Below, piece by piece: positions 1,330-34,010 of a stretch of DNA of 50,708 nt; within the stretch, counting starts at the first letter, position 1; the number at the start of each line of letters is the position of its first letter. Source of the DNA: a virus. Both the position numbers and the translations under genes were made by a program. The stretch covers positions 19,407-70,114 of the IMG/VR virus record IMGVR_UViG_3300002514_007974; one strand, written 5' to 3'. The notes under the pieces are model-generated. The model saw only the letters and a program-made list of their open reading frames with translations. It was not told the origin of the DNA and ran no database searches.

Positions 1330-1338
1330 GAGGAGAAT

Positions 1339-4132: not shown

Positions 4133-4143
4133 GATGGTGTATA

Positions 4144-10224: not shown

Positions 10225-11205
10225 ATGAAGACAGCGATTGTAACGGGCGTAACGGGTCAAGATGGATCTTATCTGGCGGAGTTTCTTTTATCAAAAGGAT
10301 ATCGGGTAGTTGGACTAAAAAGAAGAACCTCTCTAATAAACACGGAGAGGATAGACCACATCTATGAAGACACCAATCTAAAATTAGAATATTATGATTT
10401 AGATGATACAGGGTGTATATATAAATTCATACAGAAGTATGAACCAGATGAAATATATAATCTTGGCGCGCAATCTCATGTAAGAGTATCTTTCGATATC
10501 CCCGAACATACAGTCAATACTGTTGCTTTAGGTCCCTTACGGATTCTTGAGGCGATAAAAAATATCAATGATAAAATTAAGTTTTATCAGGCGTCATCTT
10601 CTGAAATGTTTGGAAACAATCCTAACCCACCACCACAAGGGTTTAACGAGGATTCAAAGTTGATGCCCGCATCTCCCTATGCCTGCGCGAAGGTATTTGC
10701 TCATAGTTTAGTAAGAAACTATAGAGATTCTTACGGGATGCATGTGTCTAGTGGGATACTCTTTAATCATGAGTCCCCCCGAAGAGGCGAGACATTTGTA
10801 ACTAGGAAGATAACGATGGCCGCGGCTAGAATAAAACTTGGGTTACAAAGTAAGTTGTGTTTGGGAAATTTAGATTCTCAAAGAGATTGGGGACATGCTA
10901 AAGATTATGTCGAGGCGATGTGGGCAATGCTTCAACAACCAGATCCCGATGATTATGTCATAGCGACTGGCGAATGTTATTCTGTCAAGGAATTTTTAGA
11001 AGAAGTTTTTACATATGCTGGGATGGATCCATATGAATATTTAGACATTGATGAGCGGTTGTTCCGCCCCCAAGAGGTTCCCTATTTGCTAGGGGATAGT
11101 TCGAAGGCACGCGCAAAATTAGGATGGAAACCAAAGTATACTTTTTCATCTCTCGTGAGAGAGATGTACGATGTGGATAGCAAGAAAGTTGAGGGGTATT
11201 TGTGA
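10225..11205 (+). CDS. gmd: GDP-mannose 4,6-dehydratase (copy 2)
   Basis: A 326-residue extended SDR with VTGVTGQDGSYLAEFLLSKG, the exact nucleotide-binding opening of Gmd. VVGLKRRTSLINTERIDHIY, QASSSEMFGN, the catalytic YACAK and ILFNHESPRRGETFVTRKIT follow. It converts GDP-mannose into GDP-4-keto-6-deoxy-mannose, the branch point for fucose, rhamnose and perosamine. The cassette also has an aminotransferase-like gene (6362), so a perosamine-like product is conceivable. It has no visible fucose synthase. The stop overlaps the GTG of the following cupin gene (GTGA). Confidence 0.9.
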   Translation: MKTAIVTGVTGQDGSYLAEFLLSKGYRVVGLKRRTSLINTERIDHIYEDTNLKLEYYDLDDTGCIYKFIQKYEPDEIYNLGAQSHVRVSFDIPEHTVNTVALGPLRILEAIKNINDKIKFYQASSSEMFGNNPNPPPQGFNEDSKLMPASPYACAKVFAHSLVRNYRDSYGMHVSSGILFNHESPRRGETFVTRKITMAAARIKLGLQSKLCLGNLDSQRDWGHAKDYVEAMWAMLQQPDPDDYVIATGECYSVKEFLEEVFTYAGMDPYEYLDIDERLFRPQEVPYLLGDSSKARAKLGWKPKYTFSSLVREMYDVDSKKVEGYL

Positions 11206-11567
11206 GATTTTATTTTGAACGCCCGTGGGGGAAATATGACATCCTCTATGAGAGTGACGAGTGTAAGGTAAAAATTATAAATGTACACCCAGGAGAAAGG
11301 TTGTCTCTTCAATCTCATGACAGGCGACAGGAATCTTGGACTATTGTGAGTGGAACTGGGAAAATGGTTCTTGGAGAGGATGAAATAGATATATGCTCTG
11401 GAGATAACATTATTATTGACAAAGGACAGAAACACAGGGTTGAAAGCACAGGCATTAATAATTTAGTGTTTATAGAAGTTCAAACGGGAGAGTATTTTGG
11501 GGAAGATGATATAGTTCGGTATGAAGATGATTATGGAAGATTGTCGAAGGAGCAGGATGATGCATGA
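11202..11567 (+). CDS. Mannose-6-phosphate isomerase type II-like cupin
   Basis: GTG 11202 overlaps the gmd stop. The 121-residue protein is a single cupin: RPWGKYDILYES at the start, GERLSLQSHDRRQESWTIVSGTG carrying the metal ligands (QSH and E), then IDKGQKHRVE and VFIEVQTGEYFGEDDIVRYEDDYGR. It corresponds to the isomerase domain of ManC-type bifunctional enzymes without the guanylyltransferase part. It would supply mannose-6-phosphate towards GDP-mannose, the substrate of the adjacent dehydratase. Confidence 0.85.
   Translation: MRFYFERPWGKYDILYESDECKVKIINVHPGERLSLQSHDRRQESWTIVSGTGKMVLGEDEIDICSGDNIIIDKGQKHRVESTGINNLVFIEVQTGEYFGEDDIVRYEDDYGRLSKEQDDA
11547..11552 (+). promoter_or_regulatory. 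Ribosome binding site for the gene at 11560
   Basis: AAGGAG lies seven bases before ATG 11560. This favours that start over upstream in-frame ATGs at 11521, 11527 and 11533, which would overlap the cupin gene more deeply. Confidence 0.6.
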
Positions 11568-12333
11568 ATCGATAGGCAAAGTTCCATGGACTAGAGACGA
11601 CATTGGTTTTGAATTGGAAATGTTTCTAGATATCTATGACCGCCGGCCCATCACAGACAACCAGGGAGGCATGAACTCGGCACACCTATTCCCGACTTGG
11701 TTTTTATGCAAACGATTGCAACCCAGATATATTATAGAGAGCGGAGTATGGAAGGGGTTGGGCACTTGGATGCTCGAACAAGCATCTCCTTGCTCTAGTA
11801 TAATATCCTTAGATCCTGTAACAGAAAACCGTCAGCACACATCACCCGGAGTCGAATATACAACTGAAGACTTTTCGATAAAAGACTGGGATTTCATATC
11901 CAAAGAAGACAAGTCACGTACATTGTGTTTCTTCGACGATCACCAAGGGGCAGGAAGGTTGCGACAAGCACAGAACCTTGGGTTTGGGCATATAATATAT
12001 GAAGATAATTATTCCGATGGAAGAGGGCATGAGGGAAAGTTTGAGTTGCCAAACGAGGACATATCTCCAAAATCTGCTCTCGCCGGTCTAAATACTACTT
12101 TGGGAGAGTGGATACGACAAAATACAGAAATTTATTATGAATTTCCGCCAGTCTATACGGCGCTGAATTCAAGCAGAGGCGCAGAGTGGGCGAATATAAG
12201 TTGGCAAGAATATTTAGATATCACGCCACGTCCCTTATTGTCTCAATACGAAGAAAAATATAAAGTGTTTTATGATGAATCAAACGGATACACTTGGTTA
12301 TGTTATATAAAATTAGGAGAAAAAAAAACATGA
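11560..12333 (+). CDS. Rossmann-fold CmcI/methyltransferase-like protein
   Basis: About 257 residues from the ATG after AAGGAG. IIESGVWKGLGTWMLEQ resembles the EiGvxxGxS nucleotide/SAM-binding loop of cephalosporin-hydroxylase (CmcI)-like and class I methyltransferase proteins, followed by an acidic strand end (IISLDPV). A later segment, CFFDDHQGAGRLRQAQNLGF then IIYEDNYSDGRGHEG, is rich in acidic residues and histidine and could bind metal. The exact reaction is unknown. It closes the sugar cassette and its stop overlaps the next start in ATGA. Confidence is reasonable for the fold and low for the activity. Confidence 0.5.
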   Translation: MHESIGKVPWTRDDIGFELEMFLDIYDRRPITDNQGGMNSAHLFPTWFLCKRLQPRYIIESGVWKGLGTWMLEQASPCSSIISLDPVTENRQHTSPGVEYTTEDFSIKDWDFISKEDKSRTLCFFDDHQGAGRLRQAQNLGFGHIIYEDNYSDGRGHEGKFELPNEDISPKSALAGLNTTLGEWIRQNTEIYYEFPPVYTALNSSRGAEWANISWQEYLDITPRPLLSQYEEKYKVFYDESNGYTWLCYIKLGEKKT

Positions 12334-12509
12334 AACTTTCAGATCAAGCACAGGGCGCTCTCATGATGGCGCTACAAAAATGTCTCATGGAACAAATTGA
12401 TATTGTTCCTATCTTAGAGGAGATGAATTTTATTACGGGGGAGGAGGGACACTTACATGTTGAAAATCCCCCCGTTGTAGAGGTGGAAGAGGAGGAGGGT
12501 GATGCCTAG
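12330..12509 (+). CDS. Small conserved phage protein, copy A
   Basis: A 59-residue protein starting MKLSDQAQGALMMALQKC. ATG 12330 is chosen because it follows AGGAGA (12315-12320) and the paralogue at 13882 starts at the same residue. The N-terminal half looks helical, followed by IDIVPILEEMNF and an acidic tail. I recall similar proteins from T4-like aquatic phages, without a known function. The end overlaps the next gene by eight bases, as in the second copy. Confidence 0.75.
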   Translation: MKLSDQAQGALMMALQKCLMEQIDIVPILEEMNFITGEEGHLHVENPPVVEVEEEEGDA

Positions 12510-12747
12510 ATACACTTATCATTGCGAAGAATGCGATAAGTATTTTGAAACATCTCATGGAATGACCGAAATCCCGTCTCTTAACTGCGAGTGCGGGGAG
12601 ATCTTGGTTAAGGTACCTTCCCTTCCTTTACTATTAGAGGCCACGAAAATTGATAGTAAAACAGGTGATGTAGTTAAGACTTCCATAGAAGAATTTAAAA
12701 AAGACTTGAAAGAGCAGCGCAAAGAAGCATCTGAGAGGGAAGTGTGA
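12502..12747 (+). CDS. FmdB-type zinc ribbon protein, copy A
   Basis: An 81-residue protein. It opens with PRYTYHCEECDKYFETSHGM and then NCECGEIL, giving two CxxC/CxC pairs typical of FmdB putative regulatory zinc ribbons. The C-terminal half (TGDVVKTSIEEFKKDLKEQRKEAS) is helical and charged. ATG 12502 follows GGAGGAGG. It could bind nucleic acid or a partner protein through the zinc ribbon. No specific role is known. It is paralogous to 14048-14290. Confidence 0.8.
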   Translation: MPRYTYHCEECDKYFETSHGMTEIPSLNCECGEILVKVPSLPLLLEATKIDSKTGDVVKTSIEEFKKDLKEQRKEASEREV

Positions 12748-13881: not shown

Positions 13882-14055
13882 ATGAAATTATCAGATCAAG
13901 CGCAAGGAGCGCTTATGATGGCACTTCAAAAGTGTCTTATGGAACAAAGCGATATTATGCCTATATTAGGAGATATGGATTTTGTTACTGATGAAGAGGG
14001 AAATTTACATGTTGAAAATCCACCTTCGTTTGAGGTAAAGACTAAGGATGCCTAA
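13882..14055 (+). CDS. Small conserved phage protein, copy B
   Basis: A 57-residue protein with ATG 13882 after AAAGGAGAAT, clearly paralogous to the gene at 12330. MKLSDQAQGALMMALQKCLM is identical in both, followed by EQSDIMPILGDMDFVT and HVENPP. It is below the size at which many gene finders report. It again overlaps a zinc-ribbon gene by eight bases. Function unknown. Confidence 0.8.
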   Translation: MKLSDQAQGALMMALQKCLMEQSDIMPILGDMDFVTDEEGNLHVENPPSFEVKTKDA

Positions 14056-14290
14056 GTATACTTATTATTGCGATCAGTGTAATGAGTATTTTTCAATAAC
14101 TCACGGAATGACGGAATCTGCGAATCCATGCGAATGCGGTGAGGACCTACGGAAACTTCCATCAGTGCCGCTGTCTTTGGAATCTAAAATTACTAAAAAT
14201 AAAACAGGAGATGTGGTCAAGTCTTCCATAGAAGAATTTAAAAAAGATTTAAAAGCAGAGCGTCGCATTGCATCTAACAAGGAAATATAA
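14048..14290 (+). CDS. FmdB-type zinc ribbon protein, copy B
   Basis: An 80-residue paralogue of 12502-12747: PKYTYYCDQCNEYFSITHGM, NPCECGEDL and TGDVVKSSIEEFKKDLKAERR. All four cysteine positions are retained. The two copies diverge most at the start of the second half. It may keep the original function while the other copy accompanies the inserted kinase genes, but which copy is older is not known. Confidence 0.8.
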   Translation: MPKYTYYCDQCNEYFSITHGMTESANPCECGEDLRKLPSVPLSLESKITKNKTGDVVKSSIEEFKKDLKAERRIASNKEI

Positions 14291-15275: not shown

Positions 15276-15580
15276 TGGAAGACAAATTTAGCAGACATCT
15301 AGAAGAGGCGATTACCAATATTCATGATGACAGAAAGGTGGCGGCAGAGTTACTTAGGGATGTATCTGAATACATTGGAAAGAACAAGGAGCGCCACAAA
15401 GACGTGGGTCAAGTAGCAGCAAAATATTTGGAGACCTTGCAGAGGTCCAACGAGCAATTGGTAAAGTTAACTGGCATGTTGCAGAAAGCAAGAATTGAAG
15501 AGTTCAGCGATCTAGACGCGAATGACAGGGAAGATTTATTTCGTTCACTCGAAGAGGGGGGATTAGGCGATGGCGGATGA
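15275..15580 (+). CDS. Conserved helical phage protein
   Basis: A 101-residue protein almost entirely helical in appearance: EEAITNIHDDRKVAAELLRDV, then HKDVGQVAAKYLETLQRSNEQLVKL. Its short length and position after the late sigma gene are typical of conserved hypothetical proteins of T4-like aquatic phages. It overlaps the sigma stop by one base (TAATG). Function unknown. Confidence 0.6.
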   Translation: MEDKFSRHLEEAITNIHDDRKVAAELLRDVSEYIGKNKERHKDVGQVAAKYLETLQRSNEQLVKLTGMLQKARIEEFSDLDANDREDLFRSLEEGGLGDGG

Positions 15581-16232
15581 TATGCTAAAGCAAACTTGTG
15601 AGTTTGAATACGGGACACTCAATCCTGCTGTTCCTCATGACACTAATCCGATGCTAGATATTAATACGTATGATCCTCTCGCATTGGTTTCCAGAGTTTG
15701 TCATGATGCTGCTTATAAAGTGGGAGACAAAAAGGACAACGCCTATAAGGCGATTGTTATGAGAGTAGATTATAATTTCAATGGATATTGCGAGGTGAAA
15801 GCTAGGATACCAGAAAAAGATGGATGCCGACCAGAACCAGCGGAATTCTGCGCCACCAATATCAAATCCAACTCACATTATACTATAGATATGCATCGCA
15901 CATACTCTTGGTCCGGCCGCACTCCTCTTATTGGTCAGGTGGTTCTGGTCAAAATACCCGAAGATGGGTCTTACAACACTCCCGGAGAAATAATAGATTT
16001 ATTGCCTGAACGCTATGTCGCAGGTAGAATAAAAAGTTCAAAACTTGATTCTCAGAGTGCAATTCCTCCTCCCGGCAATTCACTTTCAGTGGATCCTCCG
16101 CCTGGTGATCAGCCTGGCGGACCAATGGATCCGGGATCTCAAACTTCGCCGTTCGGGGAGCAGTTGGCTTCCGCAGCGGATGAGGCAGTAGAGGCAGCTT
16201 CAGATTATCTGTCAGGATTGTTTGGGGCATAA
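15570..16232 (+). CDS. Possible baseplate hub protein with OB-like region
   Basis: A 220-residue protein. ATG 15570 follows a G-rich GGGGGGA. The middle (residues ~50-150) has alternating strands, as in VMRVDYNFNGYCEVKARI and PLIGQVVLVKIPEDGS, which would suit an OB-type fold like the hub protein of contractile tails. The C-terminus is rich in proline and glycine (PPPGDQPGGPMDPGS), then an alanine-rich helix. Placement directly before the peptidase gene matches T4 gp5, where OB, lysozyme and needle parts form one chain. The OB assignment is by pattern only. Confidence 0.4.
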   Translation: MADDMLKQTCEFEYGTLNPAVPHDTNPMLDINTYDPLALVSRVCHDAAYKVGDKKDNAYKAIVMRVDYNFNGYCEVKARIPEKDGCRPEPAEFCATNIKSNSHYTIDMHRTYSWSGRTPLIGQVVLVKIPEDGSYNTPGEIIDLLPERYVAGRIKSSKLDSQSAIPPPGNSLSVDPPPGDQPGGPMDPGSQTSPFGEQLASAADEAVEAASDYLSGLFGA

Positions 16233-16251
16233 AACATATTTAGGAAAAAGT

Positions 16252-16878
16252 ATGAGACTTACACAGGAACAGGCAAAGGCGCTTTTAGAGAGAATCAATA
16301 CTCCCTTTTATTTATACCCTGATTTTACAGAGACTATGTTTGATCTAATAAGGGCAATCCGTCAACAGCGCCTCCCCTTCGCCGTATACGAGACCTATAG
16401 GACCCCGCAGCGACAAAGAAAGTTAATTTCTTTGGGGTTTTCAAAGTTGAAAAATGTATACCAGAGCAAACACGTTCACGGATTGGCAGTTGATTTTTTG
16501 ATTGAAAGCAAAGTTGTTACTTCTCCCAGCAAGAACAAGATTATTGAAATGGTTAGTAAGGGGAATATAAATGATAACCCGGAGATTGCCAAAAGTAATC
16601 TTATTTACAATACTGGCGTCAATATATTGGGAACTGAAAGTAAAAAACCACGAACAATCGTGGAGGATGGGCAGGTTCTAGAGTGGTGGAAGACGCTGGG
16701 ATTGCTGATAGAAAGACAGTTCCCTGACTTGGTGTGGGGGGGAGACAAGAATATTAGCGACGGACAATTGATAGGAAGTGATCCTATGCATGTAGAATCT
16801 CGGCACGCAGATAAGTTGATGCGTGGCGGTCATACGATAAAGGCACTGAGAGCAAACGGAAATCCAGGATTACACTAG
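16252..16878 (+). CDS. M15-family peptidoglycan peptidase (tail-associated lysin)
   Basis: About 208 residues from ATG 16252, with AGGA six bases before. The upstream TTG start at 16222 is less likely. VYETYRTPQRQRKLIS resembles the conserved arginine segment of VanY/M15 peptidases, HVHGLAVDF is the HxxGxAxD zinc motif, and DPMHVE supplies the last histidine ligand. These enzymes cleave D-amino acid or L-Ala-D-Glu bonds in peptidoglycan. In this baseplate context, a role in local wall degradation during injection is likely. Confidence 0.8.
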   Translation: MRLTQEQAKALLERINTPFYLYPDFTETMFDLIRAIRQQRLPFAVYETYRTPQRQRKLISLGFSKLKNVYQSKHVHGLAVDFLIESKVVTSPSKNKIIEMVSKGNINDNPEIAKSNLIYNTGVNILGTESKKPRTIVEDGQVLEWWKTLGLLIERQFPDLVWGGDKNISDGQLIGSDPMHVESRHADKLMRGGHTIKALRANGNPGLH

Positions 16879-16893
16879 GGAGATAGATAAAAT

Positions 16894-17802
16894 ATGAGTG
16901 TCAAGCCAGCAGTATCAGGAGTGAATAAATCTTATGAAGCGGCAATCGAAGAGTTGCCAAAAGATCGCCAAGGACTAACTAAGGGCGCCGCCGGTACCCA
17001 AAATATCGAAACTATTCCCACATATGTCGTGGGTGATCGGGATACGATTTACGGAGACGAAAATAAAGCTAATGCTCAGATTGTGTGCGGAGTAGACCGA
17101 CCCGCCAGCAGATGGAGCGGGTATGGTGGTAAAGGACACACTCAATGTGGCGCCATCGATATTGTAACTGGTCGTATGTCCTATAGACCTCGTAATGTTT
17201 TTTGTGATCCATCTTTCGAAGACGATGCAGCGCGCATATACATCTCGGCGAAGACGGACGCAGATACTAATTTTGGATTAGCGCCTGGCACTGTGGGGAC
17301 TGCGGACGCACGTTCGGCAGTAGTTCTCAAGGCAGATGGCATCCGAATTATAGCGAGAGAGGGAATAAAAATTTGTAGTTCTATGCACTCCAAGAATTCT
17401 CAAGGAGGCGACTTGAAGTCTATCATAGGGGTGGACATAATTGCAGGTGGCAAGACTGATGACTTACAACCACAAGTAAAAGGAAGGAACTTGACTGAGG
17501 CTCTTAACCGGGTTGTTGAGCACATCAATGGTTTGAACGGAATTGTGGATCACATGCTTACGACACAAATGAATTTTAACGAAAGTCTGACTCATCACTT
17601 TCACTATTCTCCGTGGTACGGTAACGCGACTACTCCTTCTGATGCGGTAGTGGGGAAGGGCGTTAAGACTTCAATTGATTTTTTACAGGATACTAAGAGA
17701 TCTTTGGTTACTCATAAAACTAACTTGGTGAATTTTAAACAAACTTTTTTGGAACCGTCGGGTTGTAAATATATCAATAGTCGCTGGAACAACGTAAATT
17801 AG
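16894..17802 (+). CDS. Baseplate spike/needle-like structural protein
   Basis: A 302-residue protein without a firm family match. It has a repetitive beta-rich middle (SAVVLKADGIRIIAREGIKIC) that resembles the ladder of strands in phage spikes. It then has two clustered histidine stretches (HHFHYSPWYG), a feature sometimes used to bind metal at spike tips. GGAGA lies before the ATG. With the hub and lysin genes it may form the central spike complex. This is inferred from position. Confidence 0.4.
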   Translation: MSVKPAVSGVNKSYEAAIEELPKDRQGLTKGAAGTQNIETIPTYVVGDRDTIYGDENKANAQIVCGVDRPASRWSGYGGKGHTQCGAIDIVTGRMSYRPRNVFCDPSFEDDAARIYISAKTDADTNFGLAPGTVGTADARSAVVLKADGIRIIAREGIKICSSMHSKNSQGGDLKSIIGVDIIAGGKTDDLQPQVKGRNLTEALNRVVEHINGLNGIVDHMLTTQMNFNESLTHHFHYSPWYGNATTPSDAVVGKGVKTSIDFLQDTKRSLVTHKTNLVNFKQTFLEPSGCKYINSRWNNVN

Positions 17803-17813
17803 AGAGAACATAG

Positions 17814-20800
17814 ATGTCCAAATTCAAAGATAGCGGATACGTAAGTATAAACCAAAGTTTCAATGAGTGGTGGTTGAAACCATCCAACAAACCCATTCTT
17901 GACAGGCAAGAGGTGGCCTATGCTTGGATTATAAAAGAATCTTCTCCTCAAATAGATCCAGCACTCGTATATTATCCCGAAGAAGTCGTAAAGGAACGAT
18001 GGGAGGAGGACCCATCTCTTTATTATGACTATCAACCAAAAGAAGAAAAAACTCAAGAAGGCGAGACGGTTTCGACCTATCCCCTTATATTAGATCAAGA
18101 TTACTTGCAACCTATTAAAGAAATGGCGATTGATAAGTTAATCGAGTTTTATAATAAGGAAGACGATGATGGACTGAAGAGAGATTGGGTGCGTCCAATT
18201 TTGAGGGAAAATTCTAAAGTAAAGGCGGTATGGTGGGACGAGCGCCCCGATCCAGGTGGTGCTCCACCAATTTCTTTTTATTGTATTGTCGATGCAAAAT
18301 CTTTCGATGACATTTTACCTCTAGGATCCTATAAGCTTACGACTCTCAGTTCTGGCGATACTCTGAATAAGTTGGAAAATGATTTCAAGGAGTATTTTGA
18401 AGTCGTAGATGGAAGCGACGCGGCAAAGAGAGCAAGAATTGCCGAAATTCTAAAAGCAAATGGGGTTCTTTTGAATAACTTGAGTTCCTCGACTGATGTC
18501 ACGGACTGGATTCAGAAACAGAATGAACCTGTATTCAACTATGATGAGATCAACAGCGATCCCCAATATGATGAGAATGGTGATATCTGGACAACCCTCA
18601 CCGCCTATGATCCGGATCTCCTAAATCCCCCGTCTACTTTCTTTTCTCAAGGCGCTCAAATTTATCTTCCCAACCCCGAGCCCCCGCAACCTCCATCACC
18701 CGCACACCTAATTTCTTTACCTATAAGCCTTATCAATCCATGGATCGAACATTTGACAGAACCGAATGTGGGTCTTCTCGATATTTATAAAAATCAGGTG
18801 AAGGGCAGTGAAAAGATGATTGAAAATTTTGATTTTGATCATCACCGCGATTTACTAGATAATTTTGAACCTGCATTACGTCAGCACCTTTCTTTCAATG
18901 ACTACGAGAAGAAAAACGTTCTTGGCAATAGGGTAGAAATATTCTTTAATAGTGAATATAAAGTTATTTATATGGCACTAGATGTCGCCGGATATAAGAT
19001 ACCTCTACCTAAAGGATTATCTGCATTACAGTTTGACAGTCCATTTGGAAACTTACGAACAATGGCACTTATTTCCAGATTGGATGCCATTCAGCAGATT
19101 ACTACCACTGGTGGCGAACCATCGATGGGATACCAAGAATTTTTTCTTGGACCGGAACTGACGCCAGCAGATAGCGCCATGATCGAACCACCAGGAGATT
19201 CGGACACTGCAACTCCTCCACCTCCCCCTGTCCGACCTCTTGGATTTATAATACCTAGACCCATTATAAGAAATCTGATTCCTAGCAATCCTTTCGATCA
19301 GGCTCGACAAAAAACTCTGTCAATTGCTGAAGAGTTGGCAAAAAAGTTTGATAAGTATGGTACCAAAACGGATTCTATTTTAGATGAGGAAGACGAATCT
19401 ATAGGAAATAGTCAATACGCAACTGCGGTCGGCGCACAGGCAGCATCCGATGTTACCTTTTCGGGCGACTTGATTGTTAGTAATTTATCCAATATTCAAA
19501 TGAAGATTGCGATGACCGGCGGCGGCGCCGAAGCAATTAACGCTGCCTATATGCTCCTTCTAAATAAATTAAGCGTCGATAATTTGATGAAGGCAGCCAT
19601 CGATTGTTTAAAGGCACAAATTCCCTTTGATTGTGAGGATGTCGTCAAGGCAATCATGGAGTCGGATTTAGATGCTGGTTATTTATTTTTCAAGTACAGA
19701 TTGCGCGGTGAACTACAGATTTTAGCAGACGAGGCATATCAGGAAGCAGATGGTAGTGCGGACGAGTTTTTAGCTATTTTGGAAGGCAAACTAGAAGTGG
19801 AAGGATCTGTAAGTTATGACGATACTTTTGAAGAAGTATGTGCACTTATAACAAGCATTCTTTTGAATCCTGAGAAAATATTTGATATTCCGCTTATGGC
19901 ATTTCCGGACGACCTACCTACTGTTGATATTATGGGTAGTATTTCTATTATGCTAAATTCAGCTATTGTCGAGTTGATCACATCCCTTATTATGACTTTG
20001 GTTTCCACTCTTATTGATAATATTCTGGAAAATTGCAGCAGTGTGGTGGAAGTGTTTGCAGATAATGATTTTGGAACTGCGGATATCGCCGGCGCCATAG
20101 CGCAAAAAATGGGAGACGACAGTCTTGGTGCCGCATTGGCCGCCTTTTTGGATGCCCTTTCTCCGGATGGAGCATTTGAATTAGGGTTGGGGCCCCCTCC
20201 TGAGAGTGAGCAAGGATTAGACAGTGCCGGCGAAGAAGTGCTTCCGGAAGAAGAGGACATTGAACCTCCTCCGGAATGTCCCGAAGGAATGACATGGAAC
20301 GAAGAGACAGAAAAGTGTGAGTCATACAGTTTCATAGATAGCATAATCCCAAAGAGCACCACCACAACTCAGTTTGAAAAGGAGCATCCACTAGCTCAAA
20401 AGGTTGCGGCCGCAAAAAACTTGATAGATGATTTATCTGATATCCTTACTCCAGTTGAAACAATTGCCTTGTTTGAAGATAGGGCAGCAGGAGTCGTTTA
20501 TGATGCTATTCTGAGAGTGATAGAGGCGCGCCACGAAGAATTACATAGAGTTCTTCGAACCCACGATGATATAAGACTTTTCTTTAGGCAACTTGCTCCC
20601 ATTGTCAACATTGGCGCTATTACCGAAGTTGTAACTACAATGCCAAATGGACTTCTTGGGTGCACCTACGATAGCACTTGTGAGCGCATCGCCAATCTGA
20701 AGGTTAACTTTGATGTTGGACCGCAAGTAACTCAAATTGTGGAGGAGCAGGGAGGAAAGAAGCGAGAAATATTGGCGAAACTTATTGCTGACTACGTTAC

Positions 20801-23800
20801 TCCACCGCCCACCCCGGACGGCGAACCGGGCCCGATAACAGACGAACAAACAGATACTTTTTGTCAAGAGGGAAAGAATAAAACTGGTAAAGCACTTATA
20901 CCCAAAGATAATGCATCGTTGATATTTTTGCTGGAAAAAGTGATCGACATTATGTACGACGGCACTTACATGTCGTTCGATCAAGAGATAAGTAAGATAG
21001 CGGATTCAATGAACGTAATTGAGAGCATCCCGAAGGTTATTCCACGGGTACTCGACATGGAGCAGGGACTCAAGTTTGATGTCTTTAGTATGCATGAGTT
21101 ACGAACTGAAGAATATATAATGCCTATTCCTGATTGGATGTCGGATCATCTCCCAGGCGGCAAGACTTTGAATCCCGAATTTCGGAGACTATTGGCGACT
21201 GGATTTGTCCCGGCACAAGGCGAAGAGGATGGAAAATACGGACCCTATACTACCTTGAAAGCAACCACTGAGCAAACAGCAATGATTATTCACGCCATTG
21301 CTGGTACTTTGGGCACAGCCGGCGTTGTCATGGCTGGCGCCGGAGGGCAAATGATAGGCGAGGGCGCCATGGCCGCCCTGTTGATGCCGGGGTACGGTAC
21401 CGGTTTTGGGATGGCCCACGCAACAGTAGGCGCCGGTTTGGTGGGCGGCGGCGCCGCCCTGGGATTGACTGGGTTTCTTTTGGAGATGGCGATGATGATG
21501 GGGATGTTCAAGACAGATGTTCTCGCACCGGATGTTAGGTACGACGAGAAAATTCCAAAATTTGCGGGAACTTCTATAAAGGGGTTCAATAAGATTTCCG
21601 AAATTGTAATATTGCCTCGCTATGAACCCGGTTCCGACGCTCGCTGGCCTATTGCAATAAATCTTTCTCTGAGTCAACCCATGCCGTCGGAACCGGGAAC
21701 AAGTCCTAGTTTTAGAGCATCCAATTTTGTGATGAAATTTATGATGGGAGTTGCGTTATCGAAGGATGCGCGAGAGTCCGAGCAAAACCTACGACCCAGA
21801 GATCCCTTTGCCACGGATTCTTCTATACAAGGAATGGGACTATACGAAAACAAATTTATTTTGCGCATTGGTGATCTCCCGTTAGATGTGAGCAACCTCA
21901 TGGCACCACAACCTGGTCATGAACTTGCATACGAGGCAGGCGCGCCCCTTTTTCTAGATCAAGATCAACCTTCTATGGATGCCGCCATCTTTCGTTCTAA
22001 GTATTATGGAACCGCCGCCGTTCCCGAACCCGCCAGTCATCTAATCAAACAGATCGAACAAGAAAAACGCTCGCCCCTGACTTCGCCCGGTCGGAATCCT
22101 CAAATAGACGTACTGACAGAGTTTATAGAATCTATTTTTCGAAAGGGAGGACTGGATGAAGAATCCGATCCGCATTCTAGACCGAATCTAAATGGAGATA
22201 CTCGAAAACTAGCGCAATTCCGCATGGTAGACGACATGACAACTCAGATAATGACAACGATAGGTCGGGAAATTCTTAAGAGTCCACTCTTCTTGAAAAC
22301 TGAAGGCACTTCACGTTATGATTCTGGGGGTCTTCCAATCTCTACTACCGAAGGGATATCCTATGTTAGGTTGATTGATTGGGCGCCCATCACCACTCCG
22401 GATCAGAGAGCGTGTGGTTTTGACCCTCACATCCTTGCTTTAGATACTATCAAAAAACGAACACGGGAAGACTACGAAAACATGATTGAATGTTCTCCTC
22501 TCGAAGACGAAATAAGCACCGCTGGTTTGGGAAGACCGGAACTTTCTGCCCTTGAGGCAGCTTCCATGACAGGGTGCGTAATGACCACGATCAGAGCATA
22601 TGCGCTAGAGCAACTGGTTCGTGCTATGTTTCCGCTATCAGTTTTTGTGGGTAGGGAAGTGGTAACTAAACTTCTCGTTGAATTCATAACCGAGGAAACA
22701 CTTGAGCAAATAAAGAAAAAGGAAGAAAAATATTATGAGGAGTTTTTAATTCAAGTTGAAAACTCTTTTGCCTCACGAATGAACGAGTTTAGTCCCTATG
22801 GATACGTTCCAGATATTGTACAGCAGAGTCGCGAGATTGGGTTAGACTGGCTTTATGCAGATTCAGCGATAAAGGAATTCAATGGAGAATACACGGGAGA
22901 AGAGATTGATGAAGAGCAGGTAGATGCAGGGGTGGTGAACCCACCGGGACCACCGTCGTGTCCAGACACGGGCGAGGATTCAAGTACACAGGCGGCAGAA
23001 GACGAGTCTCTTGAAAAATTGTTGATGAGCGAAACTGAACAAAGGGTTCGAAGCCGCTTGAGATTTTTGGTTGAAGAGCAAATTTACTCTGTTTTGGTAA
23101 AACTTCAAGATATGATTTGTTTCGGAAATACCTTATCTTTTGATGATAATTTCCTTGCACGCCAGTTGCCGCTTGTTCCTGTTCAGAAATTTCCGGGAGA
23201 AGCAAGATTCGCCGAAAAGAAATTCGATTTAGAAACGATGGAGCAAAACGAGATATCCCGCCAATTTCAGGAATATTCTACTCAATGGGCTCTCTGGGCC
23301 CAGGCGCGCCCATTTGCAATGGTAGGCGGTACCATACAGTCGATACAAGATGCAGCAACAGCAACAGGAACTTCAATAGCATGTGTGGGCGAAGCATTAA
23401 CTTTTGACATTCCCGAGATTCCAGATCCTCCTGAAATGCCATCCGCAGAAGAACTCGCTACGGAGATAGATTTTTCAGACGACAACGTTGCCAATTTCGC
23501 GCCATCAGGGAACAAACCGCTAGCAGAGAACTATGAATATGGGATATTTGACTTGGATTTTCTCAAGAATATTGCGGAGTATAATCTAGATAAAGCGTTG
23601 GAAGAGAAGTTTGACGAACTCGCGGCCGGTGGATTGTCGGCGATTGAAGCCTTTGAAGAATCCGCGGCCTGGGATGTGATCGAGGGACTGGTCAGCGCAG
23701 CCAGTGCGGCCCGCGTTGCCGCCGGCGGGTCGGGTATTGATATCAACAATGTCAGTCTTTCCGGGGTGTATACAGGCGCGGTGAGTGCCGGTCTCAGCGG

Positions 23801-26666
23801 TTACAACGAGGCAGTAGACCAAGTGAACGAGGCGGAGTCTGCTTTTGATTCATTTATGGATAATTTTGATGTGATGGGCACCCTCCAAGAAGCTGGATCT
23901 TGCATCACCCAGGGCGCAGAAGGAGTTAAAGACGCTGGACTTCAGTTGCTTAGAACGACCCTAAACAGTCCTACGCCGTTTTCTGAATTTGCGAAAGGTC
24001 GAGACGTGGGGACTACTGATCGCATGGGGAACATTACTGAATTTGGTGCACGCGTGCAGACCGAACCGGGAGAAGGGCGATTTGATAATCCCATTGCTTC
24101 CAATCTGACTGACAAGACTGGGATGTTGATGTTGGAGAAATACATAAAAGTAAAGACTGCTCCCGGCGCCAATGCCGTACTAAATCTCCAAGCGCTCGAT
24201 GAACCCTCTAATATAGTTCTGCCACCACCGAGCGACTCGCCACAACCTCTGGAAGATATTCATAACGATTCGACTGACTCTCCACCAGAAGATGCTGTGA
24301 ACTGGCCTCCAAGCGATTCCACTACATCCGACACCGGTACGCCTCCGCAGGCGTATAATGATAGCACAGTAGACCCCAACATCGGCGACTCCGCTGCGGA
24401 TGACTCGTCTCCCGCAGGAGTAGTCGAGGGCAACAACTATGTGGTATCCACTTTTGGAACACTCGATCTAGAAGGGTCTCCATTCGCCGGAAGTCAAGAC
24501 AGGATGCACAACCCCTCCCTTTCCCAAATCTTAGGACCCAGAGAGGTGATCAATACATCTCGCCGCCTAGATCCCAAGAAACCGATTGATACTGCTCCTA
24601 AAACTGTTGATCTTGTAGGAAATAAGGCGAACGTCTCTTTGGTTCCGAGCACCTCTCCACATCGCGAGAAGATTTACAACATAGATAAGTGGCAAGAAAT
24701 ATTCCAACAGTTAGCAACTGATAATCCTGATGCTAAGTTCAGTGATTATTTTGAGGAATGGTCATACGGCACCAGGTTGGTTTACATAGCGCCCACTAAT
24801 GATTTTCAAGTCGTGAGTGAAACCTCAGAACCCGGCGCCCAAGTTGATCGCACCATAAAAATACCTCAGAGTCCTCTTGGAGATGCCAATCCTGTTCGAT
24901 ATTTATTTGACAAGGATTTGTCCATTGCAAGTAACGCCTATATGCAGTATGAGCGCACCACCGTAAGAGAGAAAGTAGAGGCAGTTAATTATAAGTTTTA
25001 TCACGAGTCGCAAGCTTTTAGGACCGACGGGATTATAACCATCGAGGAGCAAAAGCGAAACGAAGAAGTGCTAGCAGATCTCTCAGAGCAAAGTCTGATT
25101 GATATTGTTGCAACCGGAGCAGAAGACTTGTCGAAATTGACATTTGATGCCGGCATGATGGAGAATCCTTATTTGGATACGTCGGTATTTGAGAGTTTCT
25201 TCGGTCGTCAGTTTCGCGATTCGACAAAGGAGTCTGTGGTAGAGAGGGCACTTACAGTAATACCTCTCTCGTCGGCGGAAATACCCATTGACTTTCCCGA
25301 TCCCAATATTCCCCTTTCTAAAATTTTGGGGTACGATGGATTATCTCTCGAACCCTCTCCTGATAAAAGTGCAGATGCGGGGACTGCCTTTAAAGATTTA
25401 GACGAGTTATATACTAGAAGATTCATGAGCAAGACGCTCAATCTCCTCAAGGGATCTCCCGGATATAAACTGGCATTGAAATATTGCGTACCGGGCAACA
25501 CTCTTCTTTCATTCGCTACTATCTATGCGAATCTTCTTAGCGAACTCCCAGAAACATTCTTCGACCAGACAAAATTTGAATTAAAGAATTTATTTGAGAT
25601 TCTTTTGAATGGCGGAGATTATACTTTCGAAGGTGCAACAGAAAAAGAAAAGGGCAGTAATCGAGAACAGATGGCACTCGCACAAAGCAACATGGGTACC
25701 GACGGTGGTGCCCGCAAGCCTGGGTTAGTTGATCTCGCGATTCAAACTCCTAAACTTATTTTCAAGGGATTAGCAGAATTTGCCGATCCAGTAATCGCGC
25801 CTGCTGCTTTGATTGCTAAAAAAGCGAAGGGAGGAGAATTTTTTCCTCGCATGATGAAGAATGGCGATGTAAAGGGGACCTGGTATATGCTCCCCATCGA
25901 ATTGAATCAGTATGACATGCCTCCTCCAATTGGAACGGTTGACGATCCCACCAAGACTGTTTCGTACATAAACGAGGAAGAGTCTCGCATTATTATACCC
26001 GAAGAAAACGAGTTTGTCCCCGGACTTCCGGACAACATAAACCTCTCTGTCCCCGTTCCTGCTTTCATGGATAAGATTACGGGGAAGGATTTAGACGGAT
26101 TTCTAAAAGATTATTTCTTTAAATTGGGCGACATCGGCAACGCCCAGCAGAAAACAAATTATTATAATTTTACGAGAGCGCTTGCGGGATTCCAAATAGC
26201 GCAAACTATCAATATAATTATTACTGAATATATGTATGCGATGAACGATCCTGTTCTAAGGTGTAAAGAGTTTATGATTAAGAAGGACGGCAAGGTAATC
26301 GTCCCCGTCGTGGTATTGGATTTCCCAGGCGATCCCATAGATATTCCCGTTACTGCTTTGGGCAACTCTTTCTTGCCGATGGATGTTACAATGGGATTTG
26401 GTGTGTGGCCACCACATAGTCCACTTGGTTGGATTTACCGAGCAATCGATGCAGTAGAGTCTCTTAAAATGCCAAGTTTGGTAGATATGGAGCGATTGCG
26501 GGAGAAGGAAGGGTTTGAGAACAAGAAAAACACTTTGGATCGACTATGTATAGATGTGGATCAGTTGCGCGAAGAAAATACAACCCGAACCAGGGAAAAC
26601 GAGGCCCGCGCAGAACAAATGAGGATTAGTTTGAGCAATACCGATAAAGCGAAAAAAGCTTGTTAG
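17814..26666 (+). CDS. Giant virion structural protein (2950 aa)
   Basis: A single uninterrupted chain of 2950 residues lies between the spike genes and gp25. Residues ~165-290 include SYKLTTLSSGDTLNKLENDF and then GAQIYLPNP, which look like a split LysM. A proline-rich stretch lies at ~456-476, and a hydrophobic helix run at ~703-740 (SISIMLNSAIVELITSLIMTL). A cysteine motif near 820 reads CPEGMTWNEETEKCE. A glycine/alanine-rich hydrophobic block lies at ~1160-1233, and a Ser/Asp/Pro linker at ~2136-2205. The C-terminus is charged and helical and ends in cysteine. It could be a baseplate hub scaffold or a membrane-penetrating component. A tape-measure role is less likely, since it lacks long coiled coil. 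Confidence 0.6.
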   Translation: MSKFKDSGYVSINQSFNEWWLKPSNKPILDRQEVAYAWIIKESSPQIDPALVYYPEEVVKERWEEDPSLYYDYQPKEEKTQEGETVSTYPLILDQDYLQPIKEMAIDKLIEFYNKEDDDGLKRDWVRPILRENSKVKAVWWDERPDPGGAPPISFYCIVDAKSFDDILPLGSYKLTTLSSGDTLNKLENDFKEYFEVVDGSDAAKRARIAEILKANGVLLNNLSSSTDVTDWIQKQNEPVFNYDEINSDPQYDENGDIWTTLTAYDPDLLNPPSTFFSQGAQIYLPNPEPPQPPSPAHLISLPISLINPWIEHLTEPNVGLLDIYKNQVKGSEKMIENFDFDHHRDLLDNFEPALRQHLSFNDYEKKNVLGNRVEIFFNSEYKVIYMALDVAGYKIPLPKGLSALQFDSPFGNLRTMALISRLDAIQQITTTGGEPSMGYQEFFLGPELTPADSAMIEPPGDSDTATPPPPPVRPLGFIIPRPIIRNLIPSNPFDQARQKTLSIAEELAKKFDKYGTKTDSILDEEDESIGNSQYATAVGAQAASDVTFSGDLIVSNLSNIQMKIAMTGGGAEAINAAYMLLLNKLSVDNLMKAAIDCLKAQIPFDCEDVVKAIMESDLDAGYLFFKYRLRGELQILADEAYQEADGSADEFLAILEGKLEVEGSVSYDDTFEEVCALITSILLNPEKIFDIPLMAFPDDLPTVDIMGSISIMLNSAIVELITSLIMTLVSTLIDNILENCSSVVEVFADNDFGTADIAGAIAQKMGDDSLGAALAAFLDALSPDGAFELGLGPPPESEQGLDSAGEEVLPEEEDIEPPPECPEGMTWNEETEKCESYSFIDSIIPKSTTTTQFEKEHPLAQKVAAAKNLIDDLSDILTPVETIALFEDRAAGVVYDAILRVIEARHEELHRVLRTHDDIRLFFRQLAPIVNIGAITEVVTTMPNGLLGCTYDSTCERIANLKVNFDVGPQVTQIVEEQGGKKREILAKLIADYVTPPPTPDGEPGPITDEQTDTFCQEGKNKTGKALIPKDNASLIFLLEKVIDIMYDGTYMSFDQEISKIADSMNVIESIPKVIPRVLDMEQGLKFDVFSMHELRTEEYIMPIPDWMSDHLPGGKTLNPEFRRLLATGFVPAQGEEDGKYGPYTTLKATTEQTAMIIHAIAGTLGTAGVVMAGAGGQMIGEGAMAALLMPGYGTGFGMAHATVGAGLVGGGAALGLTGFLLEMAMMMGMFKTDVLAPDVRYDEKIPKFAGTSIKGFNKISEIVILPRYEPGSDARWPIAINLSLSQPMPSEPGTSPSFRASNFVMKFMMGVALSKDARESEQNLRPRDPFATDSSIQGMGLYENKFILRIGDLPLDVSNLMAPQPGHELAYEAGAPLFLDQDQPSMDAAIFRSKYYGTAAVPEPASHLIKQIEQEKRSPLTSPGRNPQIDVLTEFIESIFRKGGLDEESDPHSRPNLNGDTRKLAQFRMVDDMTTQIMTTIGREILKSPLFLKTEGTSRYDSGGLPISTTEGISYVRLIDWAPITTPDQRACGFDPHILALDTIKKRTREDYENMIECSPLEDEISTAGLGRPELSALEAASMTGCVMTTIRAYALEQLVRAMFPLSVFVGREVVTKLLVEFITEETLEQIKKKEEKYYEEFLIQVENSFASRMNEFSPYGYVPDIVQQSREIGLDWLYADSAIKEFNGEYTGEEIDEEQVDAGVVNPPGPPSCPDTGEDSSTQAAEDESLEKLLMSETEQRVRSRLRFLVEEQIYSVLVKLQDMICFGNTLSFDDNFLARQLPLVPVQKFPGEARFAEKKFDLETMEQNEISRQFQEYSTQWALWAQARPFAMVGGTIQSIQDAATATGTSIACVGEALTFDIPEIPDPPEMPSAEELATEIDFSDDNVANFAPSGNKPLAENYEYGIFDLDFLKNIAEYNLDKALEEKFDELAAGGLSAIEAFEESAAWDVIEGLVSAASAARVAAGGSGIDINNVSLSGVYTGAVSAGLSGYNEAVDQVNEAESAFDSFMDNFDVMGTLQEAGSCITQGAEGVKDAGLQLLRTTLNSPTPFSEFAKGRDVGTTDRMGNITEFGARVQTEPGEGRFDNPIASNLTDKTGMLMLEKYIKVKTAPGANAVLNLQALDEPSNIVLPPPSDSPQPLEDIHNDSTDSPPEDAVNWPPSDSTTSDTGTPPQAYNDSTVDPNIGDSAADDSSPAGVVEGNNYVVSTFGTLDLEGSPFAGSQDRMHNPSLSQILGPREVINTSRRLDPKKPIDTAPKTVDLVGNKANVSLVPSTSPHREKIYNIDKWQEIFQQLATDNPDAKFSDYFEEWSYGTRLVYIAPTNDFQVVSETSEPGAQVDRTIKIPQSPLGDANPVRYLFDKDLSIASNAYMQYERTTVREKVEAVNYKFYHESQAFRTDGIITIEEQKRNEEVLADLSEQSLIDIVATGAEDLSKLTFDAGMMENPYLDTSVFESFFGRQFRDSTKESVVERALTVIPLSSAEIPIDFPDPNIPLSKILGYDGLSLEPSPDKSADAGTAFKDLDELYTRRFMSKTLNLLKGSPGYKLALKYCVPGNTLLSFATIYANLLSELPETFFDQTKFELKNLFEILLNGGDYTFEGATEKEKGSNREQMALAQSNMGTDGGARKPGLVDLAIQTPKLIFKGLAEFADPVIAPAALIAKKAKGGEFFPRMMKNGDVKGTWYMLPIELNQYDMPPPIGTVDDPTKTVSYINEEESRIIIPEENEFVPGLPDNINLSVPVPAFMDKITGKDLDGFLKDYFFKLGDIGNAQQKTNYYNFTRALAGFQIAQTINIIITEYMYAMNDPVLRCKEFMIKKDGKVIVPVVVLDFPGDPIDIPVTALGNSFLPMDVTMGFGVWPPHSPLGWIYRAIDAVESLKMPSLVDMERLREKEGFENKKNTLDRLCIDVDQLREENTTRTRENEARAEQMRISLSNTDKAKKAC

Positions 26667-26683: not shown

Positions 26684-27058
26684 ATGGCAGGGTTTTCGCC
26701 AGCGTTACCATTTGGAATGTCACCAGGAGAGGGAATCGTTCTAACCACGAGTTTGTTGGAAGTTATCAAGCAAAACTTTAAAAATCTTGTTTTGACAAAT
26801 CCAGGGGAAAGAGTGATGCTTCCCGATTTTGGCGTGGGAATAAAGAGATATTTATTTGAAATGAATGACGCCGTGACTCAGAGTAGTATCCAATCCAAAA
26901 TAGGCGAGCAGGTAAAGAAATATATGCCTTTCTTATCTTTGGACAATATACAATTTTTATCTACAAACGATATGTTTGACGCGGGCACTGTCAATATTCG
27001 GATATTTTATCATGTTTCTCCCCTAGAAGCCGCTGATGTGCTGACCCTAACAATATAG
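26684..27058 (+). CDS. 25: Baseplate wedge protein gp25-like
   Basis: A 124-residue protein of the GPW/gp25 family. The signature NPGERVMLPDFGVGIKRYLFE matches the conserved EPR-type core (here GERVMLP) that anchors the sheath to the wedge. The length is normal (T4 gp25 is 132). It is the initiator for sheath assembly in contractile tails. A purine-rich GTAGGAG precedes the ATG, and gp6 follows. Confidence 0.9.
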   Translation: MAGFSPALPFGMSPGEGIVLTTSLLEVIKQNFKNLVLTNPGERVMLPDFGVGIKRYLFEMNDAVTQSSIQSKIGEQVKKYMPFLSLDNIQFLSTNDMFDAGTVNIRIFYHVSPLEAADVLTLTI

Positions 27059-27076: not shown

Positions 27077-28876
27077 ATGCCAGATGGTAAAAAAGTTGCG
27101 ATAAATTACACAAGCAGAGATTTTGCTACCATTAAGAGAGACCTAGTAAGTTACGCTAAGAAATATTATCCCAACACATACCAGGATTTCAGTGAGGCGG
27201 GTTTTGGTTCCCTCTTGATGGACATGGTATCTTATGTGGGAGATATGTTATCTTTCTATGTTGACTTTCAAGCGAACGAAAGTTATTTGGACACCGCAGT
27301 AGAATATGATAATGTCGTTCGCCTCGCTCAACAGATTGGTTACAAACTAAATGTCAACCCGTCTTCTTACGGCATAGCATCTTTGTATATTATTGTGGAT
27401 GCAGATATCACTGGTCTCGCTCCCGACAGAGCCTACATACCTGTCTTAAAGCGGGGTTCTCTATTCTCAACTGAAAACGGAGTTGGTTTTATTCTGAATG
27501 AAGATGTCAACTTTGCCGACTCTAAGAATAAGATAGTGGTTTCTCAAGTTAACGAGGCAACTGGCATCCCGACCTCTTACGCTATTCAGGCATATGGACA
27601 AGTCGCTTCTGGAAAGTTAGTTCAACAGAACGTAACGGTGGGAAATTTTGAAAGATTCTATAAAGCGGAACTAATCGGAACAGACATTACTGAAGTGATA
27701 TCTGTTCAGGATTCCGAGGGAAATGATTATTACGAAGTAGACTATTTGTCTCAGAACACAATTTATAAATCAGTCATGAATACTGATACGGATGATAGAG
27801 AATTGACCCCCGCTCTTATAAAATCTCAGATAGTTCCGCGCCGCTTTGTTGTTGGGAAAGTAGGAACCAGGACATTTCTTCAATTTGGCGCAGGCGATGA
27901 AGCGAGCGATATAAACAGCGCTTTTTCGGAACCCAACTCAGTAGTTCTATTTCAAAACGGCCGCAACTATATTAGTGATACGGCGATTGATCCAACTCGC
28001 TTGTTGGATTCTAATAAGTTGGGCATTGCTCCATCTAATACTACATTGCGGGTTGTGTATCGAGTGAACGACGCAGGGAATGTTAATGCTTCTGCTAATT
28101 CTTTAGTTGTTATTAATGAACCTACATTCGCATATTCGGACATCGCCAACCTCATTCCAGATAAGGTTCAGAGTGTAAGCGACTCTTTGGAAATTTCCAA
28201 TGAAAGACCTATTGTAGGAGATATTTCGTTACCGTCGTTGACAGAACTTAAGTTGCGCGCACCCGCCGCCTTCTCCTCTCAGAACAGAGCGGTTACTCGG
28301 GAAGATTACTTATCTTTGATGTACGCGATGCCGGAAAGGTTTGGAGTTATCAAAAAAGCAAACGTGGTACAAGACAGTGAATCTTTTAAAAGAAATCTGA
28401 ATGCTTATGTAATTTCCCAAGGTACAGCGGGAAATTTAGTAAAAGCTAATGAGTCGCTAAAATCTAATTTGAAGTCGTGGTTGAATAAGAACAAAATGAT
28501 TACGGATTCAATTGATATTCTCGATGCAAAAATTGTCAATTTTGGGATTGTTTTCGAGGCTGTGGGGAAAAGTAATCAGGATAATTCAGACCTCCTTTCC
28601 ACTGCCGTCGGCGCCCTCTCGCTAAAGTTTCAAAAATATTTTGATCTTTCCGAGAATCTTTATATTTCTGATATCTATTCCTCCCTAAAGGATGTAGAGG
28701 GAATATTGGATGTTATAAGTGCTAAGGTAATTTTGAAGAATGGTGGTGCATATTCAGATACCTTTTTCGACATGACAGAAAACTTATCCGCTGATGGTAG
28801 AATGATTAAGATTCCTCAAAATGTTGTATTGGAATTGAAATTTCCGGATATTGATATAAAAGGAGTCATCAAATAA
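27077..28876 (+). CDS. 6: Baseplate wedge protein gp6-like (baseplate J-like)
   Basis: A 599-residue protein (T4 gp6 is 660). The N-terminus has INYTSRDFATIKRDLVSYAKKYYPNTYQDFSEAGFG, then a helical stretch (SLLMDMVSYVGDMLSFYVDF), typical of baseplate J/gp6 proteins. PAAFSSQNRAVTREDYLSLM near residue 400 is another family hallmark. It forms the wedge ring that controls sheath contraction, working with gp25 next door. The stop overlaps the next start. Confidence 0.85.
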   Translation: MPDGKKVAINYTSRDFATIKRDLVSYAKKYYPNTYQDFSEAGFGSLLMDMVSYVGDMLSFYVDFQANESYLDTAVEYDNVVRLAQQIGYKLNVNPSSYGIASLYIIVDADITGLAPDRAYIPVLKRGSLFSTENGVGFILNEDVNFADSKNKIVVSQVNEATGIPTSYAIQAYGQVASGKLVQQNVTVGNFERFYKAELIGTDITEVISVQDSEGNDYYEVDYLSQNTIYKSVMNTDTDDRELTPALIKSQIVPRRFVVGKVGTRTFLQFGAGDEASDINSAFSEPNSVVLFQNGRNYISDTAIDPTRLLDSNKLGIAPSNTTLRVVYRVNDAGNVNASANSLVVINEPTFAYSDIANLIPDKVQSVSDSLEISNERPIVGDISLPSLTELKLRAPAAFSSQNRAVTREDYLSLMYAMPERFGVIKKANVVQDSESFKRNLNAYVISQGTAGNLVKANESLKSNLKSWLNKNKMITDSIDILDAKIVNFGIVFEAVGKSNQDNSDLLSTAVGALSLKFQKYFDLSENLYISDIYSSLKDVEGILDVISAKVILKNGGAYSDTFFDMTENLSADGRMIKIPQNVVLELKFPDIDIKGVIK

Positions 28877-33300: not shown

Positions 33301-34010
33301 CTCGTCCGCTCGAATATGTGTACGCTATAGAAAAAGGCATGCAACAAGTTATTTCTGATGAAATGATTGATGTCTTCGGATCTATTGCAGATTTTAATAA
33401 TATAATCGGGCAACCTGTCAATCGTTATCGACAAAATTATCATGACATGGGCAAACTGAGACAGATATTTTTTAGTAGAGTTAAAAACATACCAAGTCTC
33501 ATAAAGTATGTTGAATTCTATAAGTGGATCGATGGAGCAATAACATCCATGATTCAGCAACTAATTCCTGCTACTGCTCAATTTTCGGACAGAGTGGCAA
33601 CGGTTGTAGAAAGTCACGTATTAGAAAGAAATAAATATTGGAATAAATTTCCCACGGTGGAACTGGAAGAGGACACCCCTAGTTCGCCCTTAAGGGGCGT
33701 CAATGAACTTTCTTATCCATGGAAATCGGGATCGCCGCCCCTCAATACCTCTCAAAGCAGAAATTGCTATTGGTGGAAAAACAGAGCAGAATTTCATGGG
33801 TCTGCTCGCGCCTCGATTATTTCGTCTTCCCATAGCACCTTTGACCGCGAATTTGGGAGTCCTATTCAGTTCGATGCTCCAGGCGTTGAAAGAACCGGCG
33901 GCGGTGTGATAAAATTAGATATAACACGCCAAACGACAAAATTCGGATCAAACGGATATTTATTAGTATCCACGAGTAGCTTTTCGCAAGCGGACTGTTT
34001 AGATGACTAG
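30303..34010 (+). CDS. Large baseplate/tail protein with LamG-like domain
   Basis: A 1235-residue protein. Residues ~170-340 form a concanavalin/LamG-type jelly roll: AIEFWMKKDGF, then DGQWHHYAVSADSSTGKAELYVDGVYK, then ASLDEFRFWKT. A later segment, YIYKTKGTMKSFRNLLRCYG (residues ~575-600), resembles the KGT..FR motif of phage tail proteins. The LamG domain suggests binding of a sugar or protein on the host surface. The end overlaps the next start by eight bases (ATGACTAG). Its relationship to T4 gp7 or gp10 cannot be set from sequence alone. Confidence 0.65.
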   Translation: MGIKNLFNRDADTKIVSLTNKTEASENIESTSYYSAKVKQKGRFEPHIDYSNPLFFSKFGSAEKYYHDAITNIYTYYPFDGSLYERTAWELSASGIQKYIFEEEYPRRNGYIDFSYGGWGSTTLSTGSYALPTDAEYITVHGGPNKDPEGNGKSLASIFINSSSNFYNVSHNRESNLEFASAGNAIEFWMKKDGFVAAGQQEVIFDLWSSGSAVASADYGRFCILINSSSSPLHVTYLSGTTGLSASFSGTSAPTTASLADGQWHHYAVSADSSTGKAELYVDGVYKDYILGAPITEVTGALIANIGSYYEARSADTLEAFTGSQVPGWCKLSASLDEFRFWKTTRNDKNIGQYWFTQVGGGTNEDNANTDLGVYYKFNEGITQTASIDSRVLDYSGRFSDGTWTGYAAGARNTGSAMVIAGAAEREFKDPIIYSFHPAVVSLLSDKKSIGKQYDYTNAASLYYSLPSWIIDEDHDVGGDLLNVVQIVSNYFDSLYLQTKELPKLKNVQYLSSSEKPYPFTNKSLESLGFATPDLFLESDILEAIGSRNDTEEFDEKIWNVKNLIYQNIYNNLVYIYKTKGTMKSFRNLLRCYGIDEELVRVNLYVDGTTYEMRDDYKLQALEKKFVNFAGTDRFNGTVYQTASSDIADSRTYIAGSSHIASSSWTWESQVVVPSKFPISSDLYFETAFISASLFGQHQAVSDQADYTWHTDDNNNFQVYLVKEEKESLNAKFVLKSLSENSPLPTLESPIYTDIYDNTNWNIAVRIKPQYELYNTSSATLTSSYTLEFQGVETEGEYIRNEFILSASLDATSGSNFVKSNKRVYAGAHYTNFTGTILEQTDVKVTNNRVWASFLPSDVIRIHAKDSTNYGTKYPYRNAYPENSDISAKSIPAIETLSLFWGYDTLSSSDDGAGPGYTAGFNVDDISSGSADPYRNYGFLNDALKTQHPGRGNKFLANDTDAIQKEYLSNAKLQSIETVQSDDLVEIISESDEEIFTRESRPLEYVYAIEKGMQQVISDEMIDVFGSIADFNNIIGQPVNRYRQNYHDMGKLRQIFFSRVKNIPSLIKYVEFYKWIDGAITSMIQQLIPATAQFSDRVATVVESHVLERNKYWNKFPTVELEEDTPSSPLRGVNELSYPWKSGSPPLNTSQSRNCYWWKNRAEFHGSARASIISSSHSTFDREFGSPIQFDAPGVERTGGGVIKLDITRQTTKFGSNGYLLVSTSSFSQADCLDD

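Follow-up and report, generated by a model that had tools for sequence, protein, structure and literature searches.

Among myophage baseplates, LysM domains act as connectors between hub and wedges, as in gp53 of T4 and gp16 of A-1(L) (PMC10966104). Both proteins are small, at about 150–200 aa. A very large protein beside wedge genes is known from the marine T4-like phage S-PM2, where S-PM2p084, a virion structural protein of 3048 aa, adjoins gp25/gp6. In Flavobacterium phage immuto, a protein of 371 aa occupies the slot between a spike-like gene and gp25. The giant protein described here resembles the first of these in its baseplate context and in a LysM-like string found in its own sub-clade, the second in size and surroundings, and the third in its slot. 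However, the counterpart of gp53 and gp16 in its clade is a separate gene of ∼110 aa; S-PM2p084 comes after gp6 and has no profile similarity to the giant protein (E 7.9); and the immuto protein is eight-fold shorter, and a profile-profile comparison found no homology to it. A 223-aa slot protein of LR756508 was discarded as a relative, its match (E 0.099) extending over a charged helical stretch.

The giant gene and its neighbours

The window (the whole stretch of DNA analysed, 50,708 nucleotides) is the last 50.7 kb of a 70,114-base virus contig, IMGVR_UViG_3300002514_007974. It contains an open frame of 2950 codons with an ATG start and no internal stops, and residues 375–2950 of the product are also encoded, with 100% identity, on contig IMGVR_UViG_3300002514_007712. 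The gene, its parts and its neighbours are listed below in order.

15570..16232, + strand: probable OB-fold spike base (inferred by reading)
16222..16878, + strand: tail-associated cell-wall enzyme, endolysin- or M15-peptidase-like (phrog_465, E 2.5e-8)
16894..17802, + strand: spike-tip-like protein of 302 aa, conserved (columns 34% identical on average across 25 aligned members)
17814..26666, + strand: giant baseplate-locus protein, 2950 aa (open reading frame and family profile; 89 loci, 86/92 readable slots)
18324..18677, + strand: LysM-like stretch, residues ∼171–288, sub-clade specific (pattern kept in L005, L021 and L047)
19923..20048, + strand: hydrophobic block 1, residues 704–745, conserved core (hydropathy and alignment; predicted helix, low confidence)
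20277..20321, + strand: cysteine loop CPEGMTWNEETEKCE, residues 822–836, this phage only (family comparison)
21276..21518, + strand: Gly/Ala-rich hydrophobic block, residues 1155–1235, apparent private insertion (gap in L005, L021 and L047; codon usage)
22095..22763, + strand: conserved middle module, residues 1428–1650 (alignment, profile)
25251..26663, + strand: C-terminal module, residues ∼2480–2950 (family profile, gene fissions)
26400..26447, + strand: C-terminal signature GVWPPHSPLGWIYRAI, residues 2863–2878 (family comparison)
26684..27058, + strand: gp25-like baseplate wedge protein (PF04965, E 3.5e-13; phrog_261, E 1.1e-19)
27077..28876, + strand: gp6-like baseplate wedge protein (phrog_219, E 5.3e-20; PDB 9f4a gp6, profile E 4e-5)

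An earlier note on this DNA had described a baseplate-region protein in which a LysM-like region, hydrophobic blocks (one of them Gly/Ala-rich) and a cysteine motif suggested wall binding and membrane insertion in a single chain. The open frame and all of these features are indeed present in the sequence, and the assignment to the baseplate region is borne out by the gp25-like and gp6-like genes directly 3′ and by a slot that is conserved across loci. On the 5′ side, profile searches gave no reliable family match for 15570..16232, and the 302-aa protein (16894..17802), for which no PDB match was obtained, is a candidate spike tip. The wall enzyme 5′ of the giant gene varies: it is endolysin/M15-like in the window (16222–16878), and Amidase_2 or Muramidase in other loci (L037:15748–18264; L043:782–2485).

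A fast-evolving family in a fixed slot

The giant protein gave no match in profile searches of PHROGs and Pfam and no tblastn match among 50,697 phage records, and two diverged relatives used as queries against the same records retrieved nothing significant. Since there were no direct matches, relatives were sought through the conserved neighbour gp6, and scans of viral contigs on this basis yielded 30 loci at first and then at least 80. A family profile built from 16 full-length members matches open frames in 89 of the gp6-derived loci listed, and where the slot is readable a family member lies directly 5′ of gp25 in 86 of 92 listed loci. The giant open frame in related loci stands between an open frame of ∼300 aa and gp25. 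Most of the six exceptions are accounted for, either by other genes inserted at the slot (L057, L048) or by membership of a different lineage (L030–L032). A DNA methyltransferase (8207–9507) is inserted beside gp25 in L057, with the giant gene just past the insertion, and other genes (34–2339) are inserted among the baseplate genes beside gp25 in L048.

The phages concerned form an uncultured, mainly marine clade with contractile tails (myoviruses), whose family members range from ∼1,650 to >3,000 aa. The group is numerous, since the gp6 search gave at least 600 rows. A literature search found nothing specific on the clade. Relatives of gp6 were also found in five contigs of bacterial MAGs, but these belong to unrelated phyla and so give no host signal.

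The giant protein is ∼32–40% identical to its nearest relatives and 15–20% to others; gp6 identity across relatives is 42–69%, the upper value being that with L047, the nearest homologue. Pairwise dN/dS is 0.17–0.25 for the giant protein versus 0.02–0.06 for gp6, which is a 3- to 4-fold difference and more in one pair. These values indicate a real protein under purifying selection that evolves faster than the wedge.

Conservation is modular. The best-kept stretches are residues ∼1–125, 300–450, 500–1150, 1428–1830 and 2235–2950, and the linkers between the conserved N-terminal, middle and C-terminal modules are highly variable. The C-terminal module is the part conserved most widely across the family, and in many members its C-terminal signature reads GxGPPxTPxGxxYxAL, with a cysteine after it. 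The same module is a gene of its own (∼510–610 aa) in L071, L078, L079, L084, L093 and L114, and in L088 the gene is split near residue 650–690 into parts of 592 and 1316 aa, so that both fission joints fall near variable linkers. Residues 1918–2034 (about 23565–23915) are poorly alignable and deviate in codon usage (z 4.1), slightly more than the Gly/Ala block. Fission into separate genes and fast divergence would suit a scaffold that serves assembly but stays out of the virion, or a precursor subject to cleavage or removal, as with the assembly factors of the T4 baseplate; the size of the protein and the deep conservation of several of its modules make this quite unlikely.

Structure models

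Two models were assessed. The first (residues 31–1230, 16 rows) was poor (pLDDT 52.6); it made block 1 a low-confidence helix and gave no confidence over the Gly/Ala block. The second covered half of the compact relative L076, its C-terminal 1,199 residues (51 aligned rows), and was fair (pLDDT 72.7, pTM 0.69). It is mainly helical with two alpha/beta parts, and the counterpart of the conserved middle module is both helical and well modelled. The earlier note had set buried beta strands in the hydrophobic blocks against its own reading; the conserved block 1 was instead predicted to be helical, at low confidence.

Against the PDB, the second model had no Foldseek match with E ≤ 0.001 (best VIA Z 4.7), the first gave weak rows (best Z 6.8) from a model that is itself poor, and a sequence-profile search with the family reached E 0.051 at best, with an unrelated bromodomain protein. 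Some likeness of the second model to the transmembrane bundles of Ptch1 and MmpL does not rise above noise (Z up to 4.7) and was disregarded. Among viral models (BFVD), the second model had four matches with E ≤ 0.001, namely A0A516M7H3, A0A1B1IUZ9, A0A516LBU8 and A0A1B1IUR6, whose predicted folds are similar to it over much of its length (TM up to 0.55, E 1.6e-26 to 4e-4). All four are unnamed proteins of uncultured viruses with no assigned function, and on these model comparisons they are probably members of the same family. We take their accession series to represent marine metagenomic phages. The family is a real part, encoded beside the tail-tip genes, that had no earlier name, profile or known fold.

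The models bear on whether the protein might be a peripheral wedge or fibre-anchor protein that displays host-adapted modules at the baseplate rim, like the S-PM2 giant after gp6. Fast divergence, variation in size and the presence of add-on modules all fit such a role, and S-PM2 offers a precedent for a virion protein of this size adjoining gp6. Nevertheless, the mainly helical model lacks fibre-like beta repeats and the gene has its fixed place between the spike-like gene and gp25, not after gp6, so that we regard this explanation as unlikely.

The LysM-like stretch and the cysteine loop

The LysM-like string (GSYKLTTLSSGDTLNKL ... RIAEILKANG ... GAQIYLP) is visible in the window phage and alignable in three relatives, and in the family comparison it was found in these four phages only (the window phage, L005, L021 and L047). 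Its columns are absent from the family profile and the stretch is missing from most members. The LysM profile (PF01476) did not match the full giant protein, its fragments or the record, and did match control genomes. The predicted order of elements is compatible with beta-alpha-alpha-beta, at a pLDDT of only ∼50–60. The region is therefore fairly called LysM-like, as the earlier note had it, but the name LysM is not justified.

No other family member has the cysteine loop, and L047 has a different cysteine motif at this place. Assignment of the loop to CBM_14 was rejected, the match being a half-motif of 16 residues (E 0.015; 15.8 bits against a cut-off of 22.1).

Tail genes of complete relatives

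Complete relatives (G001–G003) encode a contractile sheath, and in two of them, which were examined further, it is followed by a tube and a tape measure (phrog_167, E 8e-10 and 1e-8). In ∼35 loci the tape measure is followed in order by a protein of ∼300 aa, a LysM protein of ∼110 aa and a protein of 700–1600 aa. The LysM protein matches phrog_7145 and the A-1(L) baseplate protein gp16 (8kea, E 1.2e-4). Position and reading suggest weakly that the 700–1600 aa protein is the hub, and its best profile match, to an R2 pyocin protein, is also weak (E 0.096). The record of the window phage ends before the tape-measure region, and its separate LysM and hub genes are thus presumed from these relatives.

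The giant protein was considered and rejected as a tape measure, the slot behind the tube being held by the separate phrog_167 gene in complete relatives; tape-measure profiles run against 16 giant members gave one weak match (phrog_11265, E 0.06). The giant protein could alternatively be a greatly enlarged form of the hub, or of the canonical hub–wedge connector known as gp53 in T4 and gp16 in A-1(L), and the LysM-like stretch of the window's sub-clade is in keeping with this. In the relatives, however, other genes encode the LysM connector and the hub candidate, most family members lack the stretch, and comparison of the stretch with the clade's own connector gave an hhalign probability of 0.7% and no profile match, all of which renders such an identity very improbable. 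Complete relatives encode the tape measure, the LysM connector and the hub candidate apart from the giant protein, which therefore appears to be an additional part.

Hydrophobic blocks

Three Kyte–Doolittle segments reach 1.6 or more, starting at residues 704, 1156 and 1205, and the 70-residue window richest in Gly and Ala (49% G+A) starts at residue 1161. Octanol-scale hydropathy, which called segments in every member, was set aside. Block 1 is the only feature of the earlier note that lies in the conserved core. The Gly/Ala block corresponds to a gap in L005, L021 and the nearest homologue L047 and differs in codon usage from the remainder of the gene (GC3 54/81 versus 39 expected, P 0.0003), and its absence from near relatives together with the deviant codon usage makes it look like an insertion. 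A search for relatives of the block elsewhere matched only the same phage. Among 479 open frames of at least 300 aa in related loci, one other protein (L104) carries a comparable block, a Gly/Ala-rich, glycine-zipper-like hydrophobic stretch (L104:1702–9540, residues 201–270) at a different site. Other hydrophobic stretches occur near the position of residue 1835 in L004, L006 and L021.

The earlier note proposed an ejection component that binds the wall and whose hydrophobic blocks enter the inner membrane during DNA entry. Hydrophobic segments do exist, with at least one segment of 1.6 or more in 36 of 45 full-length members, and the Gly/Ala block looks like a genuine insertion, with a similar one elsewhere in the protein of L104. 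Yet 9 of the 45 have no such segment, family maxima are mostly 1.6–2.4 versus 4–5 segments and a maximum of 2.6–2.8 in the tape measure, and near relatives do without the Gly/Ala block; we judge ejection improbable. As functions of the family, wall binding and membrane insertion are not supported: the Gly/Ala block and cysteine loop are absent even from L047 and the LysM-like stretch is seen in the nearest sub-clade only, while wall degradation resides in genes just upstream and the strongly membrane-like protein is the tape measure. The earlier reading was right as to location and blocks, and its function was drawn mostly from private decorations. The private Gly/Ala block may still have a membrane-active role.

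A proposed baseplate scaffold

On balance, gene order and elimination lead us to lean towards the giant protein being an extra, fast-diverging, clade-wide scaffold of the baseplate, near hub and wedges. We propose that it is a structural part beyond the canonical set of the contractile-tail baseplate throughout one uncultured myovirus clade, its gene keeping a fixed position after the spike/lysin genes and before gp25–gp6. Several copies, perhaps six, would pack round the hub between spike and wedges, bracing the baseplate and moving with the wedges on sheath contraction. The linkers would hold swappable add-ons (the LysM-like stretch, the cysteine loop and the Gly/Ala block), which may tune the tail tip to particular hosts. 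A bolder version, in which an obligatory clade-wide protein of new fold braces hub and wedges and is also a chassis for host-adapted inserted modules, including independently acquired membrane-active Gly/Ala hairpins, seems doubtful to us.

One of the largest conserved tail-tip proteins of a numerous phage group has been without name, profile or known fold. If its presence in virions is confirmed, the baseplates of these uncultured myoviruses hold a clade-wide part that the T4, P2 and A-1(L) models lack. The family profile provides a marker by which such phages can be recognised.

Other features of the window

Positions 379–12333 hold a cluster resembling sugar-nucleotide and nonulosonic-acid pathways (lyase-, CMP-transferase-, NeuB- and GDP-mannose-dehydratase-like open frames, by reading), which may allow modification of surface glycans by the phage. 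The open frames at 12499–12747 and 14048–14290, by reading both small, alike and of zinc-ribbon (FmdB-like) type, are an apparent duplication. Downstream of the baseplate genes, a 1235-aa LamG-bearing protein (PF13385) precedes one of 2123 aa (34003–40374) that, by reading, contains repeats of FG-GAP-like type, and the product of 40390–41505 has a cysteine-rich C-terminal tail (CDPECEECDVCDGPCCGEEGHVC).
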